From Kushneria sinocarnis (GTDB taxonomy: Bacteria > Pseudomonadota > Gammaproteobacteria > Pseudomonadales > Halomonadaceae): 64,000 bases of DNA. The translations under genes were made by a program, and so were the position numbers. Under the pieces are notes generated by a model. That model ran no database searches and was not told where the DNA came from. It saw only the letters and a list, made by a program, of their open reading frames with translations. Positions 5,425-19,450 of this stretch are shown piece after piece (the stretch's first letter is position 1; every line of letters begins with the position of its first letter). The stretch lies in assembly GCF_003633775.1 (NCBI RefSeq), contig NZ_RBIN01000007.1:124001-188000 (forward strand), given 5' to 3'.

Positions 5425-5952
5425 TCACATCCCCGTTGACCCATACCCATTATTGCCACGCTCTGTCTGATCCAGCGAACCGACCCGCCTTAGCTTGCCG
5501 GTAAATATGCGTTCAACGACCAACTGAGCGATCTTGTCTCCGGGGCTCACGTCATAGGGCTGGCTTCCGAGGTTGATCAGAACCACACCGATTTCGTTGG
5601 TATATCCACAGTCCACGACGCCAGCGAGCACGTCCAGTCCGTTCTTTACTGCCAGTCCTGAGCGAGGCGCGACGCGACCGTAGTACCCTTCAGGGATGGC
5701 CACGTGCACGCCCGTATGGATCAGCGCGCTGCGCCCGGGCCAAAGGTGCGCGCCGCTGATCGCCCGCAGATCGAAACCAGCGTCCGTTGCGTGCGCCTTT
5801 TCCGGCATGTATGCGCCATCATCTAGTGTGATGTCGATGTCGTTCGGATACAGCTCGTTCAGCAGCCGGTGCTTGTCATCTTCCAGCCGCTCGATCATGT
5901 CCATCAGCAACCGTTCATGCTGCGTGTCTTTCATTGCGTATGCTTCAGCCAT
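5425..5952 (-). CDS. dut: dUTP diphosphatase
   Basis: A 175-residue trimeric-type dUTPase. All five motifs are visible: ATDAGFDL, APRSGLA, VDCGYTNEIGV, GDKIAQLVV and RGNNGYGSTG. An extra N-terminal helix of about 35 residues precedes the canonical domain. It hydrolyses dUTP to dUMP and PPi, keeping uracil out of phage DNA and providing dUMP alongside the deaminase nearby. The ATG at 5952 has a GGAG site. Confidence 0.95.
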   Translation of the reverse strand: MAEAYAMKDTQHERLLMDMIERLEDDKHRLLNELYPNDIDITLDDGAYMPEKAHATDAGFDLRAISGAHLWPGRSALIHTGVHVAIPEGYYGRVAPRSGLAVKNGLDVLAGVVDCGYTNEIGVVLINLGSQPYDVSPGDKIAQLVVERIFTGKLRRVGSLDQTERGNNGYGSTGM

Positions 5953-11649: not shown

Positions 11650-11748
11650 TCAGAGATTCATTACAAGAGCGAACCACACGCCATAGCCGCACAGCGCGAT
11701 GGTCGCGATTGATGTCAATGCGAGGGTAATGCCAGTCAGTTTGCCCAT
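11650..11748 (-). CDS. Tiny membrane peptide, 32 aa
   Basis: MGKLTGITLALTSIATIALC... is a single hydrophobic helix with a GAGG site at good spacing. Such small membrane peptides are frequent in phage early operons. Supported only by ribosome site and hydrophobicity. Confidence 0.45.
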   Translation of the reverse strand: MGKLTGITLALTSIATIALCGYGVWFALVMNL

Positions 11749-11755
11749 GGCTGCC

Positions 11756-11821
11756 TCACATGTTGTCGTCAGTGGCTGCTTCGATCATGCCGACGATGAT
11801 TGCTGCAATTACGTTGATCAT
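11756..11821 (-). CDS. Possible leader-proximal micropeptide, 21 aa
   Basis: MINVIAAIIVGMIEAATDDNM follows a GGAGAGAG site and is the first frame after the terminator at 11,834-11,856. It may be a real membrane micropeptide or a chance frame. Confidence 0.35.
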   Translation of the reverse strand: MINVIAAIIVGMIEAATDDNM

Positions 11822-11833
11822 GTCTCTCTCCAC

Positions 11834-11856
11834 AAAAAAGCCCGCACGGGGCGGGC
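11834..11856 (-). terminator. Terminator between PL leader and first left-operon gene
   Basis: Minus strand GCCCGC-5 nt-GCGGGC followed by six T. It lies about 365 bases downstream of the PL start and would block the whole left operon unless transcription is antiterminated. Confidence 0.85.
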
Positions 11857-11929
11857 ATGGGATGCGATGACGAATCATCGGGGAGCCAGCTGCGCGATGA
11901 AGTTCTGAAGAACACCGCCCGAACCATTG

Positions 11930-12094
11930 TTAGCGTTCTATCAACTGGCTCTCCGATGGACCGCAGATATAGCGCTGCGGCCGCCGCTTTATGTTGTGGC
12001 ACCCGTTATTCACCCCACGGTTTGCTTGGGTATTCATTTCACAGCCCCGGGTCGCTTTCCCCGGCTCGCCCCGCACTACACGACGCGAATCCAT
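11930..12094 (-). CDS. Possible small protein in PL leader, 54 aa
   Basis: MDSRRVVRGEPGKATRGCEM... follows GGGGA and contains three Cys and many Arg. It might be a leader peptide or an RNA-binding regulator; the basic character fits RNA contact. Coding status is uncertain because the whole leader is GC-rich and could be purely structural. Confidence 0.3.
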   Translation of the reverse strand: MDSRRVVRGEPGKATRGCEMNTQANRGVNNGCHNIKRRPQRYICGPSESQLIER

Positions 12095-12183
12095 CATTCA
12101 GTCCCCGCTAGGGTGGCTGCGCTCGTCCGACAACACTGGCTGCCGTCCGCCTGCTTTTTTGGTGTGCAGGTCACCGTGTTCGT

Positions 12184-12195
12184 TGTTAAAGAGCG
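12184..12195 (-). promoter_or_regulatory. boxA antitermination element
   Basis: The minus strand reads CGCTCTTTAACA, the boxA consensus recognised by NusB-S10 in ribosomal and lambdoid antitermination. It begins about 26 bases into the PL transcript. Confidence 0.85.
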
Positions 12196-12227
12196 ATCGG
12201 TGCGTTTCGCTGCATCCGATGTCTCGT

Positions 12228-12256
12228 AATTTAAACGTGCGTAGTTCGCACGTCAA
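12228..12256 (-). promoter_or_regulatory. PL promoter
   Basis: Minus strand TTGACG, 17-base spacer, TAAATT. The -35 overlaps a dyad operator (12,245-12,263), and the spacer contains the inverted repeat ACGTGCG-5-CGCACGT (12,235-12,253). The -10 hexamer is identical to that of PR. Confidence 0.85.
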
Positions 12257-12263
12257 GGGCGAA
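12245..12263. promoter_or_regulatory. Putative repressor operator at PL
   Basis: TTCGC-N9-GCGAA, a perfect dyad covering the PL -35 box. Two related dyads flank PR. Confidence 0.7.
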
Positions 12264-12282
12264 GTTTAAACTTTTTTGGGTT

Positions 12283-12307
12283 AAAAAAAGCCCGCTCGAT
12301 GGCGGGC
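12283..12307 (-). terminator. Terminator downstream of the 49-aa gene
   Basis: Minus strand GCCCGC-6 nt-GCGGGC followed by seven T, between the small gene at 12,334-12,483 and PL. It isolates PL from upstream minus-strand transcription. Confidence 0.85.
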
Positions 12308-12333
12308 TCTTGGAATTGATTGAAATCAGTCAC

Positions 12334-12573: not shown

Positions 12574-13020
12574 CTAGATCAGTTTGTGAGCAATTTCTCC
12601 GCTAACCGTGTTCTCGCTCTCACCGCCTTTTAGAAGCTGATATGCAGTCTCGACCAGATCTTCGACCTCTTCACGAGTCGCATCTGGCTTGAGCCTAACG
12701 ACCAGCGGGAACGTTATGCGAGCCGCCTTCTTGGCAATTTCCAAGCCTTCATCATCAAAGCGATCGGAAACCGAAACGGGGGCATGATGACTCGCGCCAA
12801 TCAGCCATTCAGCGTTTACATTGAGTGCGGACGCAATATCCGCCCAGCGATCAGCCGAAGGTGTAACACCGCCTCTTAACCATTTGGCTGCTGTCTGCGG
12901 CGACACCTCCAGATCGTTTGCCAAGTATGACGCGATCCCGTGTTCGCGCCCGTAACGGGCAATACATGCTTGCCTCAAACGTTCTGCGAAAATCTTTTTC
13001 TTTTCAGCGCTAAGCCTCAT
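12574..13020 (-). CDS. cI: CI-like repressor lacking a peptidase domain
   Basis: A 148-residue protein with an N-terminal lambda/434-type HTH (about residues 10-75: GIASYLANDLEVSPQTAAKWLRGG, predicted recognition helix near SPQTAAKWL). A short C-terminal helical region probably mediates dimerisation. There is no S24/LexA peptidase domain (no Ala-Gly site, Ser or Lys catalytic motifs), so classical RecA-stimulated self-cleavage is not expected. The ATG at 13,020 is the first with a plausible ribosome site. It is divergent from Cro across a two-operator region. Induction may depend on the antirepressor at 13,442. Confidence 0.8.
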   Translation of the reverse strand: MRLSAEKKKIFAERLRQACIARYGREHGIASYLANDLEVSPQTAAKWLRGGVTPSADRWADIASALNVNAEWLIGASHHAPVSVSDRFDDEGLEIAKKAARITFPLVVRLKPDATREEVEDLVETAYQLLKGGESENTVSGEIAHKLI

Positions 13021-13052
13021 GTCTTCTCGCTCATCCGTGAATGCTGGCGAGA

Positions 13053-13081
13053 AAAATACAACCAAAGATTAAACTTTGCAA
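13053..13081 (-). promoter_or_regulatory. PRM promoter for repressor
   Basis: Minus strand TTGCAA, 17-base spacer, TATTTT. The -35 lies immediately beside the dyad at 13,087-13,105, the arrangement expected for positive autoregulation. Confidence 0.5.
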
Positions 13082-18599: not shown

Positions 18600-18917
18600 A
18601 TGAAGCCGCACCACAACGAAAATTATCTTAAGTGGGTTCGCAGCCTCCCTTGCATCATGTGTGGGGCGCCCGAGTCTGAACTTCGTCAAGCCGTCGGATT
18701 GGCTGGGGTATCTGGAAACGTTGGAGCTCAATATTCAATTCCTTACTGCAATAAATGTCATGAAAGAATAGCCGTTAATAATTCGGTGGATAAAGTCCAA
18801 TACGACCATTACTACAAAATCACTGCCTCGGCAATTTGGGAGTTTGGCGCTGATAGCCATATAGGGCAGGTTTTGTCAGAAAGCAGGAGAAGAGTCAGAT
18901 CTCTGGAGCCTTTATGA
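18600..18917 (+). CDS. Zinc-binding, degenerate HNH-like protein
   Basis: A 105-residue protein starting NYLKWVRSLPCIMCGAP, as in the DUF968/HNH-type phage nucleases, with a second pair CNKCHERI. The usual His-rich catalytic segment between the pairs is missing, so nuclease activity is doubtful. Base composition becomes AT-rich from here to about 19,440, unlike the flanking genes. Confidence 0.55.
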   Translation: MKPHHNENYLKWVRSLPCIMCGAPESELRQAVGLAGVSGNVGAQYSIPYCNKCHERIAVNNSVDKVQYDHYYKITASAIWEFGADSHIGQVLSESRRRVRSLEPL

Positions 18918-19450
18918 ATAACATAGACATTATTGAATGGAAAAGCAGGATTGAGGGGATTGTTTATGGTATATGCCCGACATCCAAAAAAATGGGAATC
19001 CATGAGGACATGGTTCAGGACGGTTATATCGGTTTACTTGATGCGTGTAAAAAGTATGACGAATCTGGTGGTGCCAGCTTCAAGAATTACGCTTATATAA
19101 GAATTGCTGGAGAAATTAGAGATGGTATGAGAAGTAGGGATTGGAGTATAAGGAGAACAAAAGACAGCGAGAAAGTATTCTCAGAGATGAAAAATATAGA
19201 AGAAATTGAATATAACCCGTGTTATAGTTTTGATTATGAAATGTATTGCGATGCTGAAATTACAGTCAAAAAAATTGTAGAAAAATCAGGGTTAACCAGT
19301 GGCCAAAAAATATCTATCGACTCTTTTCTTGAAAATGACGGAGCTGTAAGGCTTGACGGGAAATCTTATTCCTCTTCATCTCAGTTATTAAAAGGAGCTT
19401 TTGATAAAATCAGGTCCAGCATTTTTAAGACAGGGGTTGCTAATGCTTGA
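18914..19450 (+). CDS. Phage-encoded sigma-70 family factor
   Basis: A 178-residue protein. Residues about 28-80 (EDMVQDGYIGLLDACKKYDE, then ASFKNYAYIRIAGEIRDGMR) match sigma region 2, close to the FliA/SigB group, including the segment that binds the RNA polymerase clamp and the -10 element. A convincing region 4 is not seen; the C-terminus is short and Ser-rich. The gene is clearly more AT-rich than its neighbours, suggesting recent acquisition. It could redirect host RNA polymerase to phage promoters or compete with host sigma factors. Confidence 0.75.
   Translation: MNNIDIIEWKSRIEGIVYGICPTSKKMGIHEDMVQDGYIGLLDACKKYDESGGASFKNYAYIRIAGEIRDGMRSRDWSIRRTKDSEKVFSEMKNIEEIEYNPCYSFDYEMYCDAEITVKKIVEKSGLTSGQKISIDSFLENDGAVRLDGKSYSSSSQLLKGAFDKIRSSIFKTGVANA

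Follow-up and report, generated by a model that had tools for sequence, protein, structure and literature searches.

In the nut sites of phage lambda, boxA is followed by the boxB hairpin close by. Few RNAs, to our knowledge, act in cis on RNA polymerase against terminators. Together with Nus factors and without N, boxA elements act against Rho, and lambda antitermination, intrinsic terminators included, needs N, according to the accessible parts of two studies (PMC4807359, PMC5725501). The same parts describe the rRNA boxA complex as mainly aiding folding and the suhB boxA as promoting Rho termination; the published boxA consensus, as given in the second of them, is GYTCTTTAANA (PMC5725501). 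The put RNA of phage HK022 is ~70 nt long, and boxA is not mentioned in the accessible part of the text that describes it (PMC9378689).

We analyzed a 64,000-nt stretch of the genome of Kushneria sinocarnis (contig NZ_RBIN01000007.1, positions 124,001 to 188,000), here called the window, in which the feature under study belongs to a lambda-like prophage. The plus strand of this prophage carries an anti-repressor, O-like and DnaC-like replication genes, NinB, RusA, and lysis, terminase and portal genes, and its minus strand carries Gam-like, SSB and Sak4 genes. On the minus strand, the order is terminator, PL with palindrome, hairpin, boxA, 327-nt leader, terminator, SD and start codon. The features, all on the minus strand, are as follows.

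12574..13065, minus strand: HTH repressor gene in the CI position (phrog_4 and others), with homologues upstream of the RNA element HP1-P2 in G045 and G035 (cluster c21)
12283..12311, minus strand: intrinsic terminator upstream of PL, AGAGCCCGCC-ATCGA-GCGGGCT followed by T7
12256-12251 (-35) and 12233-12228 (-10), minus strand: promoter PL, TTGACG-17-TAAATT, same layout in G148 and G010
12235..12253, minus strand: operator-like perfect palindrome ACGTGCG-AACTA-CGCACGT inside PL, spanning between and around -35 and -10
12196..12220, minus strand: hairpin directly 5' of boxA (z -2.1; 6/200 mononucleotide shuffles as good)
12184..12195, minus strand: rrn-type boxA CGCTCTTTAACA, matching the published consensus and the host rrn boxA
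11991..12183, minus strand: spacer leader from boxA to HP1, whose DNA matches only identical prophage copies (164 loci compared)
11983..11987, minus strand: conserved GCGGC immediately preceding HP1; many relatives have GCAGT instead
11959..11982, minus strand: HP1, an 8-bp hairpin with loop CGCTATAT, with covariation over 18 distinct sequences
11876..11958, minus strand: P2, a long stem abutting HP1, with 17-nt arms (11958-11942 and 11892-11876) and an internal A.C mismatch
11866..11879, minus strand: P3-like small hairpin GATGATTCGTCATC overlapping the P2 base; several relatives have GATGC..GCATC here (by eye)
11834..11856, minus strand: strong intrinsic leader terminator, its T-run 12 nt ahead of the first start codon that has an SD
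11756..11821, minus strand: putative first SD-led small left-operon ORF of 21 aa, starting 12 nt past the T-run

The promoter PL lies where a preliminary description of this DNA had placed it, with the sequence given there. It matches 9/12 consensus positions, and the promoter scan returned two such sites in 6 kb versus 3.3 expected, so PL is not significant on its promoter score alone. It is backed by the perfect palindrome inside it and by the two relatives with the same layout, in which PL reads TTGACA-17-TAAATT (G148) and TTGACC-17-TAAAGT (G010; both by eye). A terminator just upstream of PL is also found in both of these relatives (by eye). The palindrome at 12235..12253 is a putative operator to which the repressor would bind, with PL presumably under repressor control. 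Another perfect palindrome, AAGTTTAAACTT, is situated just upstream of PL (12262-12273) and is possibly a second operator.

The boxA after PL, already designated as rrn-type in the preliminary description, matches GYTCTTTAANA and the host's own rrn boxA exactly. The 11-mer is the sole match in the window at up to one mismatch (0.51 expected). Its exact form is present in five copies in the 3.51-Mb genome, compared with 0.9 expected from base composition and with 0 and 1 for the reversed-pattern control. Besides the prophage copy, two of the other four genome copies belong to one rrn unit (C15), where they precede the 16S gene and lie between the tRNA and 23S genes. The remaining two are at contig ends (L001 and L003), with L001 in a promoter-boxA context that resembles an rrn leader. 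The phage boxA is thus a predicted site for host NusB-S10, judged from its exact sequence. In 13/14 loci of the family described below, a hairpin was also predicted in the 40 nt that precede boxA (z -1.5 to -3.9; the exception is G010). There is no sign that this hairpin is general: among viral PL-boxA matches, the stretch 5' of boxA folds no better with an extended boxA than without one (mean z -1.0 and -1.1, respectively).

In the whole genome G000, all nine exact GYTCTTTAANA matches are on the reverse strand of the contigs and none on the forward strand; four of the nine differ from GCTCTTTAACA. A promoter followed by an rrn-type boxA recurs in the viral contigs L043-L162, across several unrelated leader families, which suggests that this combination is common in phage leaders. 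The extended boxA was present in 73 of the 112 distinct viral promoter-boxA matches listed, compared with ~14 expected for random bases at the two flanking positions. By eye, the leader of L068 looks like that of G148 and of the second G010 locus (G010b).

The locus resembles lambda nut/N in its boxA within a PL leader and in the terminator ahead of the first genes. It differs in that the window has a hairpin 5' of boxA, a boxA of the rrn form and no N among the genes found. With the rrn leader and its NusB-S10-SuhB complex, as the accessible part of PMC4807359 presents them, it shares the identical boxA 11-mer and a long untranslated structured RNA after boxA; here, in contrast, the RNA belongs to a phage operon and carries HP1-P2 followed by an intrinsic terminator. 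The boxA elements of CRISPR arrays and suhB are likewise located outside rrn on untranslated or leader RNA, but the accessible parts of these reports describe no structured RNA with a linked intrinsic terminator (PMC7862264, PMC5725501).

In agreement with the earlier statement that no N is visible, no N or other antiterminator family was recognized among 30 window ORFs in PHROGs or eight in NCBIfam, a scan in which a small divergent N can be missed. No lambda-type boxB was seen 3' of boxA; HP1 is 3' of boxA but 200 nt away in the window. The preliminary description had also named a small basic leader peptide, and the 55-aa ORF at 11930-12097 has the open frame and the basic residues that an N-like antiterminator or a leader peptide would have. 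However, this ORF had no match in PHROGs, NCBIfam or phage tblastn searches, and its sole non-identical relative is a match of 16 residues that is the HP1 hairpin itself. In the relative, this likeness sits in a 43-codon open stretch without other resemblance. Because the peptide match is HP1 RNA, and compensatory base changes maintain HP1, the leader peptide is unsupported, and we consider a role of this ORF in either capacity most improbable.

The leader from boxA to the terminator comprises 327 nt. It had been called GC-rich, which is wrong relative to the window (58.7% versus 58.0%). The 389-nt segment 12222-11834, which includes the terminator, folded better than 100/100 dinucleotide shuffles (z -2.9). 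Searches of phage records with the DNA of the leader, of one relative's element and of 25 kb of the window gave no match, and Rfam 15 gave no match in the window at or above the gathering threshold. The strong terminator that the preliminary description had noted ahead of the left-operon genes is present at 11856-11834, and the first ORF of >100 aa after it begins at 11692. A promoter downstream of the terminator, from which the operon could be transcribed instead, was absent from the promoter scan, which listed no minus-strand site between 11834 and 11692. Because no promoter was seen, or would fit, between the terminator and the first start codon, read-through is called for by the anatomy. 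In the window this spacing argument is limited, as it rests on the putative 21-aa ORF.

The last 125 nt of the leader are a member of a structured RNA family, which consists of the hairpin HP1 and then the long stem P2. These two stem-loops of the early leader abut without a linker, both show covariation, and HP1-P2 folds as a conserved RNA unit. In HP1, 144/144 cells were paired over the 18 distinct sequences, and 5/8 pairs had changed on both sides. The covariation score was 0.323, compared with 0.113 in shuffles (0/500 as high); sliding the partner gave no more than 0.114. The HP1 loop is the 8-nt CGCNNTAT, and G-U pairs occur in the stem. In P2, 213/224 cells were paired (16 distinct arm pairs from 17 loci), whereas 176 (sd 4.6) were paired when partners were swapped, and 0/2000 swaps reached the observed 213. 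This count left out L164 and G246, which failed, and G148, which pairs in another register, and added L477 with arms set by eye. P2 was better than all 300 mononucleotide shuffles in 17/19 loci, with L164 and G246 as the failures; P2 of L475 was judged by eye. The arms were picked as the best complement, a choice that favours pairing and that shuffles and swaps offset only in part. The dropped HP1-like matches reach a P2 z of at most 3.0 (best dropped, L454), and the argument from P2 significance is partly circular because P2 itself helped decide which loci were members.

In 5/16 arm pairs, including that of the window, position 7 of P2 is an A.C mismatch. The apical part of P2 is hypervariable: in loci with a significant P2, 28-135 nt separate the 14-nt arms (the window has 55). 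On the 3' side of P2, GATGC..GCATC and CTGCGTA ahead of the terminator recur among loci. Among 93 terminators in 25 loci, with some phages represented by more than one copy, 23 have CTGCGT in the 18 nt before them; 22 of these 23 sites have the form CTGCGTA or CTGCGTTT, and 21 of the 22 are downstream of the element on its strand. A candidate helix P0 (ACGCAG/CTGCGT) that would close the element fits the boxA-adjacent loci examined, but neither L177 nor the window.

The preliminary description had suggested a covariance search of the leader in related prophages. Such searches, together with BLAST, peptide and pattern searches, yielded HP1-P2 at 23 distinct loci, with covariation in both HP1 and P2; 18 loci are in 16 Halomonadaceae genomes (the window, G045, G235, G234, G001, G008, two in G251, G246, G243, G244, G249, G035, G061, G071, G148, two in G010) and five in viral contigs (L177, L164, L297, L475, L477). 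When 146 related genomes were searched with the leader by BLAST, 19 gave matches, mostly at the two terminators. A 39-nt match (L011) had a boxA 38 nt before the same HP1 loop; a 33-nt match (L016) looked like chance. A second relative came from the peptide search, where the matching part was again the HP1 hairpin. The pattern GCGGCNNNNNCAGCGCNNTATCTG was found in 11 viral and 105 genome stretches, most of them without a following stem, and matches were kept if they had eight paired bases and a second stem. A covariance model (R1) built from six sequences without boxA matched 21 of 275 family genomes at E up to 0.05, of which 15 were kept; six genomes and a second G234 match, all without P2 and boxA, were dropped. 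Among the 16 R1 loci kept, boxA is beside HP1 in 11 and upstream in two, compared with 0/7 dropped loci. A second model (R2; 19 sequences) was applied to 390 genomes of the order and 369 of the class, drawn evenly from the larger groups. It added only the two loci of G010, itself a member of Halomonadaceae, and 15/18 order genomes and 5/7 class genomes were dropped (no P2, no boxA). One G010 locus (L445) failed the ungapped P2 test (z 0.7) but was retained, since by eye the two arms can pair if one bulge is allowed, and a variant boxA lies next to it; the other (L461) was kept at z 3.3, with boxA. The pattern CTCTTTAACAANNCGGACCC was found in nine viral contigs, with the element in 9/9. In 40,000 of the 40,452 bases of Halomonas phage vB_HmeY_H4907 no element was seen; its best R2 match (15.6 bits, E 0.39) is inside the S24 repressor gene.

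The element is beside boxA at 14/23 loci and ~180-205 nt downstream of it at three. boxA is absent at five loci (L177, L164, G001, G008, and G251b), and L297 is cut by the contig end. Two arrangements were distinguished. In type 1 (window, G148 and G010b), PL is followed by boxA 32-46 nt after the -10 (by eye), a 180-205-nt leader and HP1, so that the plan of the window is kept in two relatives (by eye). In type 2 (14 loci), HP1 follows boxA by about 20 nt, with a variant boxA in G234 and G010. In the 11 type 2 loci for which 19 kb were examined, the element is downstream of the repressor on the same strand, and downstream of it in most of these 11 there are RdgC-cluster genes (one Pfam-confirmed) or methylase-like genes (by eye). 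Overall, a repressor-cluster gene is upstream on the same strand in 14/14 neighbourhoods and an RdgC-cluster gene is downstream in 10/14; the repressor is the sole gene cluster common to all 14. No second copy of the element was found in the window, and among the 19-kb stretches only G251 has one, 680 nt away.

At 18 loci, with G251 taken as one, there is a terminator downstream of the element, 0.4-1.3 kb away where cargo intervenes; at G246, G071, G010b and L164, no terminator was found within 560 nt. In 8/18 loci, at most 40 nt separate the end of the T-run from an SD-led start codon (window 12, L177 17, G045 35, G001 32, G249 12, G148 17, L475 12 and L477 12 nt). The ORF that starts there has at least 100 codons in G001, G249, L475 and L477, and 21 to 66 in the other four. 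If these ORFs are genes, the next gene at these eight loci is therefore reachable only through the terminator. The distance is 65-107 nt in six more loci and is longer or ambiguous in the rest. The loosest start rule adds L297 (39 nt, GTG) and G010 (19 nt, GTG, 21 aa), giving 10/18, and these two were not counted. For loci with several terminators, the distance was taken from a single one, namely the last of two (L177 and G045) or the second of three (L297). Viral PL-boxA leaders (44 with enough sequence, own copy included) are not enriched in terminators within 600 nt (3/44, compared with 64/880 at random places). Since boxA leaders in general do not bring a terminator with them, the linkage belongs to the HP1-P2 family.

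The main rival explanation is a noncoding RNA gene in which boxA protects a long untranslated structured RNA against Rho, an effect reported with rrn-boxA reporters and proposed to operate at CRISPR arrays. The terminator would form the 3' end, and the operon would be reached by leaky read-through; HP1-P2 would then be what the gene makes, or would hold RNA cargo. As far as the accessible parts of the reports go, boxA in E. coli partly relieves the action of Rho on a noncoding 5'UTR (PMC4807359) and boosts transcription of CRISPR arrays (PMC7862264), and both effects fit such a gene. So do the hypervariable apical part of P2 and the stems or genes inserted at some loci. However, a T-run that ends within 40 nt of an SD-led start codon in 8/18 loci is odd for a dead-end RNA, and the linkage to the left operon is conserved. 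We regard a noncoding RNA gene as possible, if doubtful.

Extra P2-like stems or cargo genes occupy the 0.4-1.3 kb between P2 and the terminator in G251, G244, G061, G235 and G249. Such insertions would also be expected of a DNA-level repeat, that is, a recombination or cargo insertion site transcribed by chance. Against this speak the G-U pairs, the strand-specific boxA and loop, and the position on the same strand as the repressor, seen in the window and 14/14 neighbourhoods. Together, they make a mere DNA repeat very unlikely.

Another rival is an attenuator controlled by a ligand or protein, in which a factor bound to HP1-P2 switches the adjacent terminator while boxA assists or, as in suhB, represses. 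The conserved loop and the A.C mismatch of P2 (5/16) resemble a binding site, and the order of element and then terminator is that of an attenuator. However, no conserved antiterminator helix was found between element and terminator, and the 14 neighbourhoods have no gene cluster in common except the repressor. Taken together, we judge an attenuator unlikely. One candidate antiterminator helix, formed with GCGGC, was rejected: among the loci examined, complementarity to a terminator arm was seen only in the window and L177 (by eye), and the full-length fold of the window does not contain this pairing.

The reading that we prefer, and to which we give an even chance, is that the leader is a cis-acting boxA/Nus antitermination module with which polymerase passes the linked terminator, so that the left operon is transcribed. 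Transcription would start at PL under the control of the repressor. The nascent RNA would then expose the hairpin and the rrn-type boxA, to be bound by host NusB-S10, and would fold HP1-P2 just before polymerase meets the intrinsic terminator linked to it. Passage of this terminator may then be brought about by the Nus complex and the HP1-P2 RNA, bound to polymerase itself or to an additional factor. As far as the scanned gene content shows, an N-type phage protein would take no part. Of left-operon antitermination as first proposed, the leader with its rrn-type boxA, its terminator and no visible N is supported by the anatomy and by conservation, with the same plan in two further loci and a family of 23; the leader peptide has been given up. 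Among the mechanisms named earlier, a host Nus-type complex has the most support, from the exact boxA and the hairpin predicted 5' of it, and would bind there. Against antitermination, 5/23 loci lack boxA, G234 and G010 have a variant form, and the distance from boxA to HP1 is uneven (200 nt in the window versus ~30 nt in the main group). The four loci with no terminator in the 560 nt searched, the five with insertions between P2 and the terminator, and the lack of terminator enrichment and of a better 5' fold in viral PL-boxA leaders at large also count against it. Read-through into the left operon could also be leaky termination.

Because boxA without N is tied to Rho, and lambda antitermination to N, HP1-P2 would be a candidate for the role of N or put. 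HP1-P2 resembles HK022 putL/putR, as the accessible part of PMC9378689 describes them, in its two adjacent early-leader stem-loops, the linked terminator, the left-operon position and the lack of a dedicated protein among the genes seen. A put-like RNA that modifies polymerase is compatible with the two abutting stems and with the absence of a shared gene cluster besides the repressor in the 14 neighbourhoods. Identity with put was rejected: on inspection, the folded HK022 Nun-CI interval has no likeness to the HP1 loop or stem, and an R2 search of an 8-kb HK022 stretch gave no match at E up to 1. In addition, HP1-P2 was found only once in the window, and P2 is longer and variable. The RNA is undescribed in Rfam 15 and in the open-access literature matches listed (titles and abstract starts). 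It is a tentative and rather doubtful proposal that boxA and HP1-P2 form a second class of antiterminator RNA that evolved independently and, with no phage protein involved, causes polymerase to disregard intrinsic terminators, serving many Halomonadaceae phages as their left-operon switch. This phage RNA probably helps decide whether the rest of the left message is made. Whether boxA-Nus complexes can beat intrinsic terminators without N is a question worth testing, and the family offers a compact, covariation-defined element by a defined terminator in many natural variants.

At L429, L434, L437, L430 and L435, the cargo between the ends of the element consists of extra P2/P3-like stems or genes. 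Its ORFs include one Crp-like regulator and four others without a Pfam match, and accessory genes may have a hot spot in this region. In L164, a tRNA-Met(cat) gene (ARAGORN; L164:6042-6118) takes the place of P2 right after HP1, which fits the noncoding RNA gene better than it fits antitermination; a second, weak HP1 copy (24.8 bits) is located at 5735-5803 of the same contig. Finally, window positions 18914-19450 on the plus strand, between the nin-type and lysis genes, encode a 178-aa protein with similarity to FliA-like sigma factors. This is the position that we take to be the one where a lambdoid phage would carry Q, and the late genes of the prophage may use a phage sigma factor.
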